Of a DNA stretch of 34,560 nt, positions 2,838-20,408 are shown piece after piece. The notes under the pieces were generated by a model, which searched no databases, was not told where the DNA came from, and worked only from the letters and a program-made list of their open reading frames with translations. Each line of letters begins with the position of its first letter. Positions within the stretch are counted from its first letter, which is position 1. Both the position numbers and the translations under genes were made by a program. The DNA is from a virus, in IMG/VR virus record IMGVR_UViG_3300043543_000742, positions 1 to 34,560 of that record; one strand, given 5' to 3'.

Positions 2838-3107
2838 ATGATTCGCGAACTGCGGATCTGGTGGCGGCTGCGGCCGCTCGTCAAACAATTCCAGGAGCTG
2901 ACGAAGATGAAGTTCTCTTTGAACGTTGCCATTCAGATGCTGGCGCTGGTGGCGCAGGGCTTGAATGCCTCGATCGACCTGCTGCCCGGGCGCGGCAAGT
3001 TCTGGGCCATGGTCGGGCTGTCGGCCGTGCAGGGTCTCACGGCCGTACTCGCCCACTTCGCCAACCCTGATGGCACGCCGGCCGAAGCGCCCTACATCAA
3101 GAAGTGA
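2838..3107 (+). CDS. small hydrophobic protein, holin-like candidate
   Basis: An 89-residue protein starting at ATG 2838 behind a GGGGAAG ribosome binding site; a GTG directly before it at 2835 is an alternative. The N-terminus is basic (IRELRIWWRLRPLVKQ). Two moderately hydrophobic helices follow, about residues 30-46 (NVAIQMLALVAQGL) and 58-75 (FWAMVGLSAVQGLTAVLAHF), then a polar tail ending in KK. Size and layout fit a small phage membrane protein such as a class II holin, but the helices are only weakly hydrophobic, so this is inference. The stop overlaps the GTG start of the next gene (GTGA), a sign of translational coupling. Confidence 0.6.
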   Translation: MIRELRIWWRLRPLVKQFQELTKMKFSLNVAIQMLALVAQGLNASIDLLPGRGKFWAMVGLSAVQGLTAVLAHFANPDGTPAEAPYIKK

Positions 3108-4363
3108 AGCCCGACCTCCACATCGAGCGCTGGCCCCTCGAGCGGCTGATTCCCTATGCCAGGAATCCGCGGACGCACACCGAGGAGCAGGTGGCGCAGA
3201 TCGCGGCGTCGATCGCCGAGTTCGGGTTTGTCAATCCCGTGCTGGTCGGAGCCGATGGAGTCATCATCGCGGGCCACGCTCGAGCCATGGCAGCGCGGAA
3301 GCTCGGGATGGCCGAGGCGCCGGTGATCGTGCTGGACCACTTGAGCGAGGCGCAGCGGCGCGCGCTGGTGATTGCCGACAACCGGCTTGCCCAGAACGCG
3401 GGGTGGGATGAGGAAATGCTGCGCGTCGAGTTGGAGGCGCTTCGCGAAGACGACTTCAACCTCGACCTACTGGGCTTCGAGGACGCAGAGCTCGAAGCGC
3501 TGCTTGCGGAGCCCCAAGGCCAGTCTTCGGGACTGACGGACGAAGACGCCGTTCCGGAGGTGCAGGATACCGCAGTCACCGTGCCGGGCGACGTGTGGGT
3601 GCTTGGCGACCATCGCTTGGTATGCGGCGATGCCACACAGATGGAAGCCATCCAGAAGGTGCTGGCGAGCGGTCTGGCGGACATGACGTGGACAGACCCT
3701 CCCTATGGGGTCAACTACGGCGCGACGATGAAGGACAAGCTTCGAAAGAAGCATCGCCAGATCGCCAACGATAACCTGGGACCCGCGTTCGAGCCCTTCC
3801 TTCGCGACGCCTGCGCGAACATCCTCACTGTGACCAAGGGCGCGGTCTACATCTGCATGTCGTCCTCTGAGCTGCATACGCTGCACAAGGCCTTCACCGC
3901 GGCGGGCGGCCACTGGTCGACGTTCCTGATCTGGGCCAAGAACACGTTCACCATGGGGCGCTCGGACTACCAGCGGCAGTACGAGCCGATTCTCTACGGC
4001 TGGAAGGAAGGCGCGGATCATTACTGGTGCGGGGCCCGCGACCAGGGCGATGTCTGGTTCGTCAAGAAGCCCGTTGCCAACGACCTGCACCCGACGATGA
4101 AGCCCGTCGAGTTGGTCGAGCGGGCGATTCGCAACTCGAGCAAGAGCCGCGACACGGTGCTCGATCCCTTCGCTGGGTCGGGTTCGACGCTGATCGCTTG
4201 CGAGAAGACTCACCGCCAAGCGCGGCTGATCGAGTTGGAGCCCAAGTACTGCGATGTCATCATCCGGCGTTTTGAAGAATTCTCCAGCAAGCGCGCCGCG
4301 CTCGAATCGGACGGACGAGGGTTCGCAGAGATCGCCCTGGAACGAGGAGCGGTGGCGGCGTGA
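3104..4363 (+). CDS. ParB-like domain/DNA methyltransferase fusion (DPPY type)
   Basis: A 419-residue second ParB-methyltransferase, starting at a GTG that overlaps the previous stop codon. Residues about 5-100 form the ParB-like domain (RNPRTHTEEQV, GHAR at 57-60, ADNRL near 93), clearly paralogous to the N-terminus of the protein at 850-2310. The catalytic half has TDPPYG (DPPY at 198-201) as motif IV and DPFAGSGST at 354-362 for SAM binding, the beta-class order. DPPY suggests N6-adenine (or N4-cytosine) methylation of DNA. Outside the ParB domain and motifs the two proteins differ considerably, so this looks like shuffling of the target-recognition part rather than a recent duplication. 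No partner endonuclease is visible. Confidence 0.9.
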   Translation: MKPDLHIERWPLERLIPYARNPRTHTEEQVAQIAASIAEFGFVNPVLVGADGVIIAGHARAMAARKLGMAEAPVIVLDHLSEAQRRALVIADNRLAQNAGWDEEMLRVELEALREDDFNLDLLGFEDAELEALLAEPQGQSSGLTDEDAVPEVQDTAVTVPGDVWVLGDHRLVCGDATQMEAIQKVLASGLADMTWTDPPYGVNYGATMKDKLRKKHRQIANDNLGPAFEPFLRDACANILTVTKGAVYICMSSSELHTLHKAFTAAGGHWSTFLIWAKNTFTMGRSDYQRQYEPILYGWKEGADHYWCGARDQGDVWFVKKPVANDLHPTMKPVELVERAIRNSSKSRDTVLDPFAGSGSTLIACEKTHRQARLIELEPKYCDVIIRRFEEFSSKRAALESDGRGFAEIALERGAVAA

Positions 4364-14502: not shown

Positions 14503-14665
14503 AACCGTGCTCATGCGCTCGCCCGATGGCGAGGTGCAGGAAGTGGAAGCCACGCCGGCCGAGCTCGTGCCACGCATGGTAGCTGGCTGGCGGCAGGTCA
14601 CCCAAGAGGAGGTAACGCCTGATGTCCGTCGCGAGGATGCAGGAAATCCAGATCTGCTTCGGTAA
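14495..14665 (+). CDS. very small phage protein, 56 aa
   Basis: A short ORF that bridges the U-like and tail tube genes. ATG 14495 overlaps the upstream stop (ATGAATGA), with GGAG seven bases upstream, and the TAA at 14663-14665 lies inside the tail tube gene. The protein starts MNETVLMRSPDGEVQEVEAT and continues with a VPRMVAGWRQV motif. Similar tiny proteins with a DGxxxEV...GW pattern occur in phage head/tail regions, role unknown. It carries the ribosome binding site (GAGGAGG) of the next gene. Confidence 0.6.
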   Translation: MNETVLMRSPDGEVQEVEATPAELVPRMVAGWRQVTQEEVTPDVRREDAGNPDLLR

Positions 14666-15662
14666 GCAGAAGCAGACCAACATCTCGACCGCCAACACCG
14701 GCGTCCAGATGTGGCAGTTGCGGAAGCTCAACGCCGCGCTCGCCAACCCGAAACTGAACACCGAAAACGACGCCGAAGAGTTCGGCAAGGGGCACGAGTT
14801 TCCGACACAGTCGTTCCAGACCTCGTGGGACGTCAACGGCACGCTGGAGAAATACCTCGGCGCGGAGATCGGCGCCTGGGCGATGGCTTTCGGGCTCGGC
14901 AAGGTCGTCAAGTCCGGCACGACGCCGAACTTCACCTACACCTGCACGCCACTGTTCCCGGCAAACGGCGATGCGGCCGAACTGCCCTACTTCTCCTTTG
15001 TCGAGCAGATCCGTCCCGGCGCGGGCGTCGTCGTGGACCGGATGGCGGTGGGATGTGTGGTCGAGGGCTGGACCATCTCGATCGGCTCGGGGCCCGGCCG
15101 CGCCAACTCGAAGATCACCGTCGAATTCGTCGGCTCGGGCAAGACCACGGAGCCCTCGGGCATCACCATGCCGGCAGCGACGGTCGAGAAGTTGCTGCCG
15201 TCGGCGTCGCTTGCGCTCACGATCAACGGCGTCAACTACGTCTCGAACAAGAACATCGTTTCGCTTGAAACGTCCTGGAAGAACAATGTCCGCCTCGACG
15301 GCGGCTTCTATCCCGGCTCCGGCTTCCAGACGCCAGGCGATGGCGCAAGCGGGGCGATCCGTGGCCGGCTTGAGTTCGGCAACCGCCAGGGAACACTCCG
15401 GTTTGTCGCCCGCTTCGAGAACGGCTCGACGGAACTCACGAAGCTCAAGAGCCAGTCCACAGGCACAGCAGTGCTGGCGCTCACCTACGATGCGAACAAC
15501 TCGCTCGAAATCACCTGGCACAAGGTCTCCTTCGCCTCGGCTGAGGTGGGCGAGACGGACGGCATCGTCACCGTCTCCGTCGAGTGCCTGCCGATGTGGG
15601 ATGAGACGAACGGCATCGTCTCGGCGGTGGCCAAGTGCAACGTGGACGGGATCTGCCAGTAA
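14622..15662 (+). CDS. tail tube protein (V-like)
   Basis: A 346-residue protein, preceded by GAGGAGG, in the lambda V position. The beta-rich sequence with SFQTSWDVNGTLEKYLGAEI near 67, ITVEFVGSGKTTEPSG near 167 and NKNIVSLETSWKNNVRLDGG near 206 looks like a siphoviral tail tube protein (Phage_tube_2-type). The duplicated pattern suggests two tube domains. Copies of it would stack into the rod, with length set by the tape measure protein. The family call is from pattern and gene order. Confidence 0.82.
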   Translation: MSVARMQEIQICFGKQKQTNISTANTGVQMWQLRKLNAALANPKLNTENDAEEFGKGHEFPTQSFQTSWDVNGTLEKYLGAEIGAWAMAFGLGKVVKSGTTPNFTYTCTPLFPANGDAAELPYFSFVEQIRPGAGVVVDRMAVGCVVEGWTISIGSGPGRANSKITVEFVGSGKTTEPSGITMPAATVEKLLPSASLALTINGVNYVSNKNIVSLETSWKNNVRLDGGFYPGSGFQTPGDGASGAIRGRLEFGNRQGTLRFVARFENGSTELTKLKSQSTGTAVLALTYDANNSLEITWHKVSFASAEVGETDGIVTVSVECLPMWDETNGIVSAVAKCNVDGICQ

Positions 15663-15665
15663 GGA

Positions 15666-16274
15666 ATGGCCATGTTTGACGCAAAGCAACCCATCACCAT
15701 CCACCTGCGGACGCCGGAAGGCGGCAAGGCCATCCGCGTGCGATTCCCGACCGACGATGAGTGGATCGACCGCCAGAAGAAGCGCAAGGTCATCGTGAAG
15801 CAACTGGGGCGCGGCGTGTCGGAGACCACGATCCCGGACTCGGCAGAAGCCGACGCCGCGCTGCTCGCGAAGATCCGCGTGCCGGAGGAGAACGCTCCCG
15901 AGGTCGATGCCTTCGAAGCTAGCCGGATCATCGAGCAGTTGAGCCAGGCCGAAGTCGATGACGTCGTCCAGGAGGGTGACGCCTTCCGGGTGACGCTGCG
16001 TGTCCTCGGCGGCACCGCGAACCACACGCTGCGGATGCCCTCGGCCAAGGACGTCTTCGAATACCGCCGCGGCTTCGCGCGCGTGCTCGATCTGCCCTAC
16101 AACCGCCAGGAACTGATCATCAACCTCGCCCCGGCGGCCGCGCTCTTCAAGAAGCTGCTCGAATCCTCCGAGGGTTACGCCGGCGAGGTGCCGATCATCC
16201 ACCAGGCCGTCGCGGTGAAAGCCGCCATCGACGCTCTCGACGGTGCCTTCCAGGAGACCGGCGACCCAAACTGA
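15666..16274 (+). CDS. tail assembly chaperone, zero-frame product (G-like)
   Basis: A 202-residue product ending at TGA 16272-16274. The sequence (ITIHLRTPEGGKAIRVRFPT near the start and LPYNRQELIINLAPAAALFK near 150) is helical and acidic, without TM segments. It corresponds by position to lambda gpG, which chaperones the tape measure protein during tail assembly. Its last codons are CCA-AAC inside CCCAAAC, so a fraction of ribosomes should slip into the -1 frame and make the longer product described separately. Confidence 0.8.
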   Translation: MAMFDAKQPITIHLRTPEGGKAIRVRFPTDDEWIDRQKKRKVIVKQLGRGVSETTIPDSAEADAALLAKIRVPEENAPEVDAFEASRIIEQLSQAEVDDVVQEGDAFRVTLRVLGGTANHTLRMPSAKDVFEYRRGFARVLDLPYNRQELIINLAPAAALFKKLLESSEGYAGEVPIIHQAVAVKAAIDALDGAFQETGDPN

Positions 16275-16603
16275 CTCACCGGGAGTGGCCTGAAAAACCC
16301 TCCCTGCGCTTCCTGATTCACTGGGCGCTCCGCCGCGAGGAACTCTGCGACCCCGGCCTCTGCCCGGACGCTCCCGACGATGGCGGCCGCTGTGACCAGT
16401 GCCCGCTGGACAAACTGGATGCCGCACAATCCTCCGAGGCGGGACTGTTGCTGCGGCGTGCGCTCGACCTTCGGGCGGCGCTGAAAATGGGCGTCCGGAT
16501 CGGCCTCGACGAGATTCGGGCGGATGAGTTCCAGGCGCTGGTGGTGCTGGAGGAAGAGCAGGAGAAACTCGACCGGGAAAGGCTGAACGCGAGCCGGCCC
16601 TAA
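15666..16603 (+). CDS. tail assembly chaperone frameshift fusion (GT-like), 312 aa
   Basis: If ribosomes slip -1 at 16265-16271, codons continue from CTG 16271 to TAA 16601-16603, adding 110 residues to the first 202. The extension begins LTHREWPEKPSLRFLIHWAL and has no start codon near its beginning, which is the signature of a frameshifted reading frame. It contains four cysteines (C-x4-C-x9-C-x2-C, positions 26, 31, 41, 44 of the extension) that could bind zinc, then a charged helix ending DRERLNASRP. In lambda, gpGT links gpG-coated tape measure to the tail tube protein; the same role is inferred here. Location immediately before the tape measure gene (apart from a moron) supports this. 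Confidence 0.8.
16265..16271 (+). promoter_or_regulatory. -1 programmed frameshift site CCCAAAC
   Basis: The heptamer C CCA AAC matches the canonical X XXY YYZ form with the zero frame as read (CCA then AAC) and directly precedes the TGA stop. The -1 frame then runs open for 110 codons. A small stem GGGAG (16281-16285) with CTCCC (16300-16304) begins 9 bases downstream and could act as the stimulator; it is only five pairs. Confidence 0.85.
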
Positions 16604-16818
16604 GCTGCCTGATGAACCGGTTCGTGATGAAGGCGCATGAGTTGTTCCGCCTTCAGGGCAACCATCGCGTACGTGCGCCCTTGATCATCGCTGAACTCGA
16701 CTTCATACACTCCGGGCGCCCAGCTCTCCACAACGGTCCCGACCTGGCCGCGAACCAGACCTTGTTCCGGGAGGTCCTCGAGAAGGGCAACAACAGAATG
16801 CAGATCGATGTCCGGCAT
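16600..16818 (-). CDS. DUF4926-like protein, 72 aa
   Basis: Start taken at ATG 16818, behind AGGCAGG. The protein reads MPDIDLHSVVALLEDLPEQG, then VRGQVGTVVESWAPGVYEVE and ends in helical charged residues, a small SH3-like fold typical of DUF4926 as I recall it. It is the second gene of a minus-strand pair with a DUF6883-like gene 13 bases upstream. This pairing recurs in bacteria and is suspected to be a small toxin-antitoxin or immunity module, not established. It ends convergently with the frameshift fusion; the two stop regions overlap by four bases. Confidence 0.75.
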   Translation of the reverse strand: MPDIDLHSVVALLEDLPEQGLVRGQVGTVVESWAPGVYEVEFSDDQGRTYAMVALKAEQLMRLHHEPVHQAA

Positions 16819-16831
16819 AGCCTGCCTCTCC

Positions 16832-17161
16832 CTACAGTACATAACAAGTCGTCAACCTCGGCAAGTCCTCGCCGTCGCGAACGATCCAGGCGCTGCGGAT
16901 GGGTACCTTTCGGTCACCCCACCGGAACTCGAAGTCAATCGTATAGCGGCGTCCATAAGGGGTCGGTGGACCCGGCAACGCCTCACCATTCCGGGCCGCT
17001 TCGATCAATGCCTCGCGCAACGCTTGGGCGTCCCCTTCCGTGATACCAAGCGAGGCAAAGACCCGAGCCTTATGACGACCACGCGTGTGTTGGAGGTTCA
17101 GGCAGTAGGCCGTCAGCTTCTGAATATCGACAATGGCCCGCTCCCCGTTCGGTAGCCTCAT
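16832..17161 (-). CDS. DUF6883-like protein, 109 aa
   Basis: Start taken at ATG 17161, giving MRLPNGERAIVDIQKLTAYC, which fits the usual M-x-LPN start of this family; a 12-residue extension from 17197 (MRTCRNCYAEHW) is possible but its ribosome binding site is no better. Central sequence NLQHTRGRHKARVFASLGIT and the C-terminal WIVRDGEDLPRLTTCYVL agree with DUF6883. It is co-oriented with the DUF4926-like gene and lies opposite the late operon between the chaperone and tape measure genes. It is probably a moron with a role during lysogeny; function unknown. Confidence 0.75.
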   Translation of the reverse strand: MRLPNGERAIVDIQKLTAYCLNLQHTRGRHKARVFASLGITEGDAQALREALIEAARNGEALPGPPTPYGRRYTIDFEFRWGDRKVPIRSAWIVRDGEDLPRLTTCYVL

Positions 17162-17195
17162 CCAGTGCTCAGCGTAGCAATTCCTACACGTCCTC

Positions 17196-20100
17196 ATGCC
17201 GGCCGATAACAAGCTCGAACTCGTCGTTGAAGTCGATGCCAACAGGGCCAATGCGTCCATCAAGAGCGTCAACGCGAGCCTGTCGAGCATGGAGGCGTCG
17301 GCGGCGAAGACCGCGCGCGGCGCGGCGCAGGGCATCGACGGCATGACCGCGGCCATGGTGAAAGGCGCCACCGCCGGGAACCTGCTCGCCGACGCCATCA
17401 AGAGCGCGTTCGCCTGGGCCAAAGAGTTCACCGTCGGCTCGGTCATGATGGCGGCTCAGAACGCCAAAGCCGAAGCCTCGCTCAAGGCGCTGGCCAACGC
17501 GCACGGCGTGGGCGCGGTTGCGGCGGCCAGGCAGGTGGCGGCGATCGAAGAGATCGGCTTCGAGTACACCGAAGCGGCGCACGCCGTCCAGCGATTGATC
17601 GTGGCCGATCTGGAGCTATCGAAGGCGCAAGGCCTGGCGAAGCTGGCCAAGGACGCGGCGGCGGTCCAGAATATCGCCGCCGGCGAGGCCCTCGAGTCGA
17701 TCGTAATGGCCATCGAATCGGGCGCCTCGCGGGGCTTGCGCACCTTAGGCTTGTTCGTCGACTTCCAGAAGGAATCTCAGATCGCCCAGCTTCAACTCGG
17801 CCGCGCACTGTCCGAGACAGAGGAGAAGCAGCTCCGCTATAACGCCGTGATTCGCGAAGGCGCGAAGATCCAGGGCGCCCACGCGGCGGCCTCCCAGACG
17901 GTCGAAGGGCAACTGGGCGCGCTGCGCCGAGAGTTCAACAACCTGCGCGAAGACATCGGAGCCCAGTTCCAGAATGACTTCAAGGCGTTGATTGGCAACC
18001 TGCGCGGCCTGGTCGCCTGGCTCCGGGAAAACACAGATCTGCTCAAGAAGTTCGGCGAGGTGGCCATTTGGGTGTCGGGCGTCCTGGCGACCTACGCCCT
18101 CGCCGACAAGATCATGGCGCTGGCGAAGTCGATCGCCGCGCTCCAACTCGCGAGCATCAACCCCTACGCGCTGCTCGCGGTGGGCGTGGTGGGCGCGGGC
18201 TTCGCCCTCTACTCGCAGTGGAAGGACACCCAGGATCAGCTTCAGGCTCGGTTCGACGAGATGCAGCGGAAGGCGCTGCGCGAGGACCTGCTGAGCGGCA
18301 AGACCAGCGTGGACGCGCTGCGCAAGCAAGGAATGACCGACGAGCAGATCCGTGGCTTACTTGGAGAGAAGCGCTGGCTGCCCGGTGAGTGGGAGCCGCC
18401 CACCTACGAGGGTCCCAAACTCCGCATCAAGTCGTCATCGGAGCCCGACCTCGAAGCACTGAAGCGGGCGGCCGAGATCCGGAAGCGCCAGTTGGAAGTG
18501 GAGCGGGAGAGCGCACGCGCGCTCGAAGAAGCGCGGCGGCGCGGGCTGACTGGATTCGCGCGAGACGTGGCCGAAGTCCAGGAGCAGCTCCGCAAGTGGA
18601 CTACATTCGTGGACGAGCGCGGCAACGAGCAGCGAATCGCACTCACGCGCAAAGCCTGGGAGAACGTCATCGGCGAACTTCGCGTGCGCCTGGCGAACTG
18701 GCAGAAGGAAGTCCAGGAGACCAATCGCAAGAACCTTGCCGAGTACTTGGCCGCGGAAGAAGAGGCCGCGCGGCAGCGGCTCGAGATCGAGTCGCACCTG
18801 TTCAGCCAGCGGCTGGCTTACAACGAGGAGATTTCCAAACGCAACCTCGATCACCTCGAGCAGATGCTCGGCATTGAGGAGACGTGGGCCGGGATCGCGC
18901 GCGAGGCCCAACTGCGGGCGCTCGATGCCACGAATGCGCAGACGCTGGAGCAGAAGGTCGCCGTCGAGCAGCGCAAAGCGGCCATCGAGATCGAGTACCT
19001 CACCCGGGTACACGAGATCCGAATGCGGCTATTCGATCTCGAAACCTCGCGGATGGTGATCGAGGAAGAGGCGCAGCTCAAACGGCTCGGCTATCGGGCT
19101 GATGAAATTCAGGCGCGGATTGCTGAGCTCACCGCACAAAGGGATGAGATCCGGCGGTTCCAGCAGGAGGCCACGGACGCCGCGATCCAGGGCGCGCGTG
19201 AGACGGCGGCGATCCGCCAGGCGCAGTTGGTGCGAGACCACAACCAGCGAATCTTCGATTCCTTCAAGCGCCAAGCCGAGGGCGTCTTCGACGCGCTGCT
19301 TACCAAGTCGCAGTCCATCTGGTCGGCCATCGGCAACTCGCTCAAGACCGCTCTATCGACCGCCATCAAGGACGTGGTCACTTCGCGGGTGGCCGCGATG
19401 CTGATGCAGCTCTTTACTGGACAGCGAGTCTCACTGGCTGGTGGAGGCGCCTCCGGCGGCGGCACTCTTGGCAGACTCGGCGGCCTGCTCGGTATCGGCG
19501 CAGCGCCGGTCTTCGGACAGGGCGGTGGCGGTCCCATTCCCGGTGGCGCGGCCGGCGGGTGGGGCACGCCTCCCTTCGTCCCTTCGACCCGCGGCGGGGG
19601 CTGGAGTGGCCTGCTCGGCGGCTGGAAGGATTTTCTTGGCTTCGGCGGCGGCGTCCAGTATGCGCCGGGCAAGGCCGTGACGTGGGAAGCCGCCACGATG
19701 GGCCAGAAGCTCTCGGCCCTCGGACGGTCCAATGCCGCGCTGGTCGGCGGTGCGACGCTTGCCCTGATGGGCCTCCAGCGCGGCGGCGTCTCCGGCCTCG
19801 CCATGACCACCGCCGGCGGCACGATGATTGGCTTCAGGTATGGCGGTCCTCTCGGCGCGGCCATCGGCGCCGGGATTGGCGCCGTCGCCGGGCTTGTGCG
19901 GCTGTTCGTCAAAGGCGCCGAGGAGAAGGCGCGCGAGAAGATCAAGGCCACCTACGGGGTCGACATCCGCGACAAGGGCGTGCTGAAGCAGATTGTCGAC
20001 ATCGCCAAGCAGGGCTTTGGCGGCAATCTGGAGGCGGCCATCCGGAGCCAGCAGATCCGTGACCTGGTCGAGTTGTACGCACTGTCGACAGGCCAAAGCA

Positions 20101-20408
20101 CTTGGGGGCTCCCGGCAACCGTACGCCCGGTGTCGCTCCTTCAGCAAGGGGGCGGGCTGTTCCAATCGAGTTCCGGCGGCCTGACGCTAGCGCCGCTCGG
20201 TGGCGGCACGCCTTCGGCAACGGCGGCTCCCACGGTGATCAACATCACCGTGCCCGGAGCAAAGGAGTTCTTCGAGAAGGAAACGGTGCGCGTAGTGGTC
20301 GAGAATCCGCGAGCCGTGCAGTCCGCGGCAATGACCGCGACCAAGGCTAGCGCTGGCCGCCGCGAGATGACCGGCCTGCAACTGAGCCCAGGGTTGATCC
20401 TGTCTTAA
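17196..20408 (+). CDS. tail tape measure protein
   Basis: A 1070-residue protein setting tail length; at roughly 0.15 nm per residue the tail would be about 160 nm. The N-terminal 150 residues are alpha-helical and Ala-rich (VDANRANASIKSVNASLSSM). A hydrophobic stretch lies at about 289-335 (ASINPYALLAVGVVGAGFALY), followed by a long coiled coil at about 410-700 rich in Glu, Arg, Gln and Ala. The C-terminal third is Gly-rich (from about 748), with GGPLGAAIGAGIGAVAGLVR near 882. No lysozyme or peptidase motif is seen. It starts immediately after the minus-strand DUF6883 gene without a clear ribosome binding site. Confidence 0.93.
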   Translation: MPADNKLELVVEVDANRANASIKSVNASLSSMEASAAKTARGAAQGIDGMTAAMVKGATAGNLLADAIKSAFAWAKEFTVGSVMMAAQNAKAEASLKALANAHGVGAVAAARQVAAIEEIGFEYTEAAHAVQRLIVADLELSKAQGLAKLAKDAAAVQNIAAGEALESIVMAIESGASRGLRTLGLFVDFQKESQIAQLQLGRALSETEEKQLRYNAVIREGAKIQGAHAAASQTVEGQLGALRREFNNLREDIGAQFQNDFKALIGNLRGLVAWLRENTDLLKKFGEVAIWVSGVLATYALADKIMALAKSIAALQLASINPYALLAVGVVGAGFALYSQWKDTQDQLQARFDEMQRKALREDLLSGKTSVDALRKQGMTDEQIRGLLGEKRWLPGEWEPPTYEGPKLRIKSSSEPDLEALKRAAEIRKRQLEVERESARALEEARRRGLTGFARDVAEVQEQLRKWTTFVDERGNEQRIALTRKAWENVIGELRVRLANWQKEVQETNRKNLAEYLAAEEEAARQRLEIESHLFSQRLAYNEEISKRNLDHLEQMLGIEETWAGIAREAQLRALDATNAQTLEQKVAVEQRKAAIEIEYLTRVHEIRMRLFDLETSRMVIEEEAQLKRLGYRADEIQARIAELTAQRDEIRRFQQEATDAAIQGARETAAIRQAQLVRDHNQRIFDSFKRQAEGVFDALLTKSQSIWSAIGNSLKTALSTAIKDVVTSRVAAMLMQLFTGQRVSLAGGGASGGGTLGRLGGLLGIGAAPVFGQGGGGPIPGGAAGGWGTPPFVPSTRGGGWSGLLGGWKDFLGFGGGVQYAPGKAVTWEAATMGQKLSALGRSNAALVGGATLALMGLQRGGVSGLAMTTAGGTMIGFRYGGPLGAAIGAGIGAVAGLVRLFVKGAEEKAREKIKATYGVDIRDKGVLKQIVDIAKQGFGGNLEAAIRSQQIRDLVELYALSTGQSTWGLPATVRPVSLLQQGGGLFQSSSGGLTLAPLGGGTPSATAAPTVINITVPGAKEFFEKETVRVVVENPRAVQSAAMTATKASAGRREMTGLQLSPGLILS

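Follow-up and report, generated by a model that had tools for sequence, protein, structure and literature searches.

In phage lambda, a -1 frameshift occurs near the end of the tail assembly chaperone gene (gpG/gpGT), as predicted for the locus described here; in both, the genes for tail tube, chaperone, extension and tape measure follow one another in this order, and T overlaps the start of H as the extension overlaps the tape measure gene in loci without an insert. The lambda heptamer is GGGAAAG, compared with CCCAAAC here. HK97 gp13/gp14 is an annotated -1 frameshift product, and signals of the dnaX type combine a slippery heptamer, a downstream stem and an upstream Shine-Dalgarno-like stimulator, resembling the elements at our locus. 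Tail assembly chaperones have been described as low in sequence similarity, and function here is best judged from the roles published for gpG and gpGT (PMC5009743).

We report an analysis of a 34,560-nucleotide stretch of viral DNA (IMG/VR record IMGVR_UViG_3300043543_000742, positions 1 to 34,560; hereafter the window, i.e. the whole stretch), which has terminase, portal, protease and capsid E genes and comes from a phage of soil Acidobacteria. Specifically, comparison of homologous sequences establishes a frameshift architecture, a slippery site and a conserved extension, and supports the original prediction, made from the letters of the window, of a programmed -1 frameshift in the tail chaperone gene. 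Very probably, the gene encodes a tail assembly chaperone of the lambda gpG/gpGT type, of which programmed -1 ribosomal frameshifting yields two lengths. A frameshifted tail chaperone is a known kind of gene; the protein families are new, and the lambda-type tail frameshift is extended to phages of Acidobacteriota.

Homologue set

In bacterial genomes, searches with the chaperone half identified 46 loci, almost all under the label Bryobacterales or other Acidobacteriota; in IMG/VR they identified 139 relatives, of which 80 were kept. A profile search with the extension gave 179 relatives of which 80 were kept, and many of these were the same contigs as in the chaperone-half search. The same contigs recurred under different locus ids, and counts were made on distinct sequences (n = 134 distinct chaperone sequences). 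No match to either half was found by tblastn against 50,697 phage records, and none emerged from two scans that looked for relatives of the members that diverge most. Up to six copies of the tail module were seen in single Acidobacteriota genomes (e.g. L009, L010, L020, L026 and L040 in one MAG, and L015, L023, L041 and L045 in another), probably representing several related prophages per genome.

Gene layout

The chaperone gene and its extension lie between the probable tail tube gene and the tape measure gene, i.e. in the lambda V-G-T-H arrangement (Table 1). ATG 15672 is the likely start of the chaperone, since the sequence AAGGA (15661-15665) precedes it with a spacing of 6 nt and most homologues begin at the same Met. 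The 312-residue fusion given originally corresponds to ATG 15666; the better start gives 310 aa. As was also predicted, the heptamer has the exact X XXY YYZ form in the zero frame, with the stop directly after it (the ORF 15666-16274 ends in ...GGC GAC CCA AAC TGA), and the -1 frame is open from the heptamer onward for 110 codons. The extension is missed by ordinary ORF calling. Elsewhere in the window, two related proteins (850-2310 and 3104-4363), both phrog_498, each combine a ParB-like nuclease domain with a DNA methyltransferase.

Table 1. Coordinates of features in the window
Feature	Position	Strand	Remarks
Tail protein upstream of the chaperone, probably the tail tube (position of lambda V)	14622-15662	+	phrog_290, E 1.5e-16
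Zero-frame ORF, gpG-like tail assembly chaperone	15672-16274	+	200 aa; 202 aa from alternative ATG 15666
Shine-Dalgarno-like AGGAG, possible stimulator	16252-16256	+	8 nt upstream of heptamer
Slippery heptamer C CCA AAC	16265-16271	+	-1 shift; zero frame, X XXY YYZ
Zero-frame stop TGA	16272-16274	+	adjoins heptamer directly
-1-frame extension, gpT-like domain	16271-16603	+	110 codons, TAA at 16601-16603; dN/dS, alignment, helical model
Downstream stem	16281-16304	+	16281-16285 with 16300-16304, 16287-16288 with 16298-16299; 9-nt spacer; covariation
Cysteine cluster C-x4-C-x9-C-x2-C	16346-16402	+	codons start at 16346, 16361, 16391 and 16400; all four invariant
Overlapping pair, DUF4926 and DUF6883	16600-16842 and 16832-17197	-	E 1e-27 and E 2e-28
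Tape measure protein (lambda H position)	17196-20408	+	homologues match tape-measure PHROGs 28, 167, 1533 and 4200

The slippery site among homologues

The window holds three copies of CCCAAAC with 3.0 expected by chance, and its GC-rich DNA commonly has long open frames; taken alone, the presence of the heptamer and the open frame is no evidence. It is the position of the heptamer and its conservation that, across the sequences compared, carry the case beyond chance. Of the 134 distinct chaperone sequences, 125 have a canonical slippery heptamer, either CCCAAAC (107 sequences) or a substitute: AAATTTT in 15 (16 with L157, whose zero frame continues beyond the site), and AAATTTC and AAAAAAC in one each. 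L298, which has AAAAAAC, and L297, the most divergent of those with AAATTTT, belong to two additional genomes, also of Acidobacteriota. On the chaperone tree the site types are separated by approximately 11 parsimony changes. The letters of the site keep changing yet stay slippery, which is strong evidence, at the level of sequence comparison, that slipping itself is what is selected. Moreover, in 102 homologous zero-frame ORFs an in-frame X XXY YYZ heptamer occurs off-site at 5 of 19,584 in-frame positions, and at the site itself in nearly all of the ORFs. At four loci (L099, L100, L104 and L106) a -1-frame TGA abuts the heptamer (TGACCCAAACTGA), so that a slip can only take place within the bases of the heptamer and a shift further upstream could not work.

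In the remaining nine homologues (L027, L028, L030, L031, L032, L033, L036, L038 and L044) AGTTTT or ACTTTT replaces the canonical heptamer; these homologues keep the extension, and where it is complete also the cysteines. At these sites the A-site TTT can re-pair and the P-site codon cannot, and several have TAG directly after the site; a non-canonical -1 slip is possible. Together with this subgroup, the four slippery heptamers that occur at a single homologous site form a natural series for testing the requirements of slippery sites in bacteria, with AAATTTT, AAAAAAC and AGTTTTTAG among the natural versions available for ranking. Among the papers searched, there was none naming CCCAAAC in connection with phage frameshifting and none on a zinc tail chaperone.

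Stimulatory elements

The original prediction also included a weak 5-bp stem 9 bases downstream; the distance held, and the stem is slightly stronger than described, with 5+2 bp around a 1-nt bulge. Many relatives have a longer version (GGGGAG-U-GGCC pairing with GGCC-CUCCC) 8-9 nt past the heptamer. Covariation of the stem among 63 sequences was 0.061. Shuffles gave 0.036 +/- 0.005, with none of 500 reaching the observed value, and slid positions gave no more than 0.022; four sequences have G-C to C-G swaps at one stem pair. Codon usage is narrower for the G, E, P, S and L residues encoded by both stem arms than in the extension background. The folding energy was slightly low relative to shuffles (mean z -0.6) and alone gave no support for the stem, whereas covariation did. 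A putative downstream stimulatory structure is present as a covarying stem. Upstream, AGGAG is found exactly at the 8-nt spacing in 73 of 91 CCCAAAC homologues; this is suggestive of an upstream stimulator and only suggestive, because its conservation is partly expected from the use of Q-E codons.

The extension and its cysteine cluster

Changes in the extension fall mostly on the third codon position of the -1 frame, and the median dN/dS is about 0.15 (0.15 to 0.165), i.e. the open -1 frame is under purifying selection at the protein level. In an alignment of 84 extension sequences, 11 columns are invariant, including those of the four cysteines, which are potential metal ligands. The predicted C-x4-C-x9-C-x2-C pattern is real (extension residues 26, 31, 41 and 44), and the alignment answers in the affirmative whether its cysteines are conserved; the middle spacing varies between 8 and 10 residues among homologues. 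The extension model is helical with a mean pLDDT of 85, and about 62-78 in the cysteine loop. No known zinc domain family was matched by the extension in Pfam, PDB or Foldseek. It is plausible that the four cysteines hold a structural metal ion, zinc or other; that the cluster is specifically a zinc site is a guess.

Neither half gave a significant match in Pfam, PHROGs or NCBIfam, or a reliable match in PDB (profile search) or by Foldseek of both models, and sequence comparison with lambda G and T detected no homology; by these searches both are new protein families. Foldseek matches of the chaperone half to an unnamed protein among viral models (A0A6M2VCE7; E 0.008, TM about 0.5) and to a "tape measure chaperone" of Proteus phage PM135 were uncertain and weak, respectively, and were not used.

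Junction with the tape measure gene

Of 105 measurable loci, 46 have a tape measure gene that begins before the extension has ended, with an overlap of about 10-13 nt when there is no insert. In the other 59 the junction carries inserts of 0.2-4.5 kb and constitutes an insertion hotspot. The inserts are often antisense two-gene cassettes and often toxin-antitoxin pairs; they were noted in the window (16600-17197, minus strand) and in L027, L075, L076, L077, L078, L080, L083, L092, L097, L100, L108 and L109. Their contents include a HicB-like antitoxin with a HicA-like partner (the partner recognised by eye), a Gp49-like toxin with an HTH antitoxin, and a TIR-like ORF (by eye). The DUF4926/DUF6883 genes of the window overlap and occupy the slot of true toxin-antitoxin pairs in relatives, which suggests an uncharacterised toxin-antitoxin or defence pair.

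Discussion

Separate translation of the extension, either from a start codon in its frame or by reinitiation after termination at the TGA, might be considered since the two frames meet at a stop, where coupling is common, and some homologues have a TTG or GTG 30-72 nt downstream. We regard it as very unlikely. The absence of a plausible start, noted originally, was confirmed: the first ATG, GTG or TTG of the window's -1 frame is TTG 16448, past all four cysteines, and conserved residues begin already 4-5 codons after the heptamer. Among homologues, 67 of 119 have no ATG, GTG or TTG in the upstream open stretch or the first 75 nt of the extension, and the start codons of the others lie mostly inside the conserved WPExPSLRFL stretch, leaving no start codon plausibly able to drive the extension alone; nor would an own start need a heptamer that changes letters and stays slippery. 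The same heptamer bears on transcriptional rather than ribosomal slippage as the source of the long form, which runs of A or T in some homologues (AAAAAAC; T5 in AAATTTTTAG) would allow. CCCAAAC of the window has runs of only three bases, and polymerases generally need longer runs than this to slip; both the stem and the X XXY YYZ frame rule fit ribosomes, and this origin too appears highly improbable. The probability that a sequencing or assembly error, or decay, has split one intact ORF by an indel is close to nil. Such breaks do exist within the extension of L022 and L102, but these are the only loci where the extension is not kept open in the -1 frame; the break at the site recurs in the same place in more than 100 distinct sequences from many metagenomes and genomes, closed by different stops (TGA, TAG or TAA), and the homologues refute this explanation.

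Programmed ribosomal frameshifting in a tail chaperone gene is the preferred reading. Weighing against it are the nine homologues with AGTTTT or ACTTTT, the two broken extensions, and searches that matched no characterised tail chaperone reliably in sequence or fold. What the cysteines do is a separate matter. With the frameshift being real, they could form disulphides or an iron-sulphur cluster instead of a zinc site, and six members, the best at E 0.02, weakly and non-significantly match the C-terminal 2Fe-2S domain of FhuF. We consider this somewhat unlikely: disulphides are not favoured in the cytoplasm, where tails are assembled, and C-x2-C together with C-x4-C is more usual for zinc, although no fold relative was found either way.

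Under programmed frameshifting, most ribosomes would terminate at TGA 16272 and yield the short gpG-like chaperone, and in a minority the P- and A-site tRNAs on CCA AAC would shift one base back to CCC AAA and translation of 110 further codons would give the gpGT-like fusion. The role of the short form would be to coat the tape measure protein; the minor long form would recruit the tail tube protein through its C-terminal domain, in which the four invariant cysteines would hold a structural metal ion, probably zinc, and both forms would depart before the tail is completed. We infer the ratio of the forms, their partners and the metal, and also the chaperone role, the latter from gene order and frameshift architecture and not from sequence homology. 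Tentatively, with a chance approaching even, the gpT-like domain may be a metal-dependent tail-tube recruiter built on a Cys4 site, in which case assembly would require metal to be loaded into a domain that only frameshifting produces. Should the cysteines bind metal, the long chaperone represents a new structural solution for recruitment of the tail tube subunit.

The roles of lambda gpG and gpGT are taken as matching those proposed here (PMC5009743). Unlike in gene order and frameshift position, there is no detectable homology to lambda in either half, and lambda T has no cysteine whereas the extension in the window has four. In HK97, the moron gp15 sits between the frameshift product and the tape measure gene H, i.e. 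in the same slot as the cassettes here; in contrast, the inserts at our junction are antisense and often toxin-antitoxin pairs. Finally, compared with dnaX, where the signal has a corresponding upstream element that is only suggestive at our locus, frameshifting at this locus would lengthen the protein beyond the stop and not truncate it.
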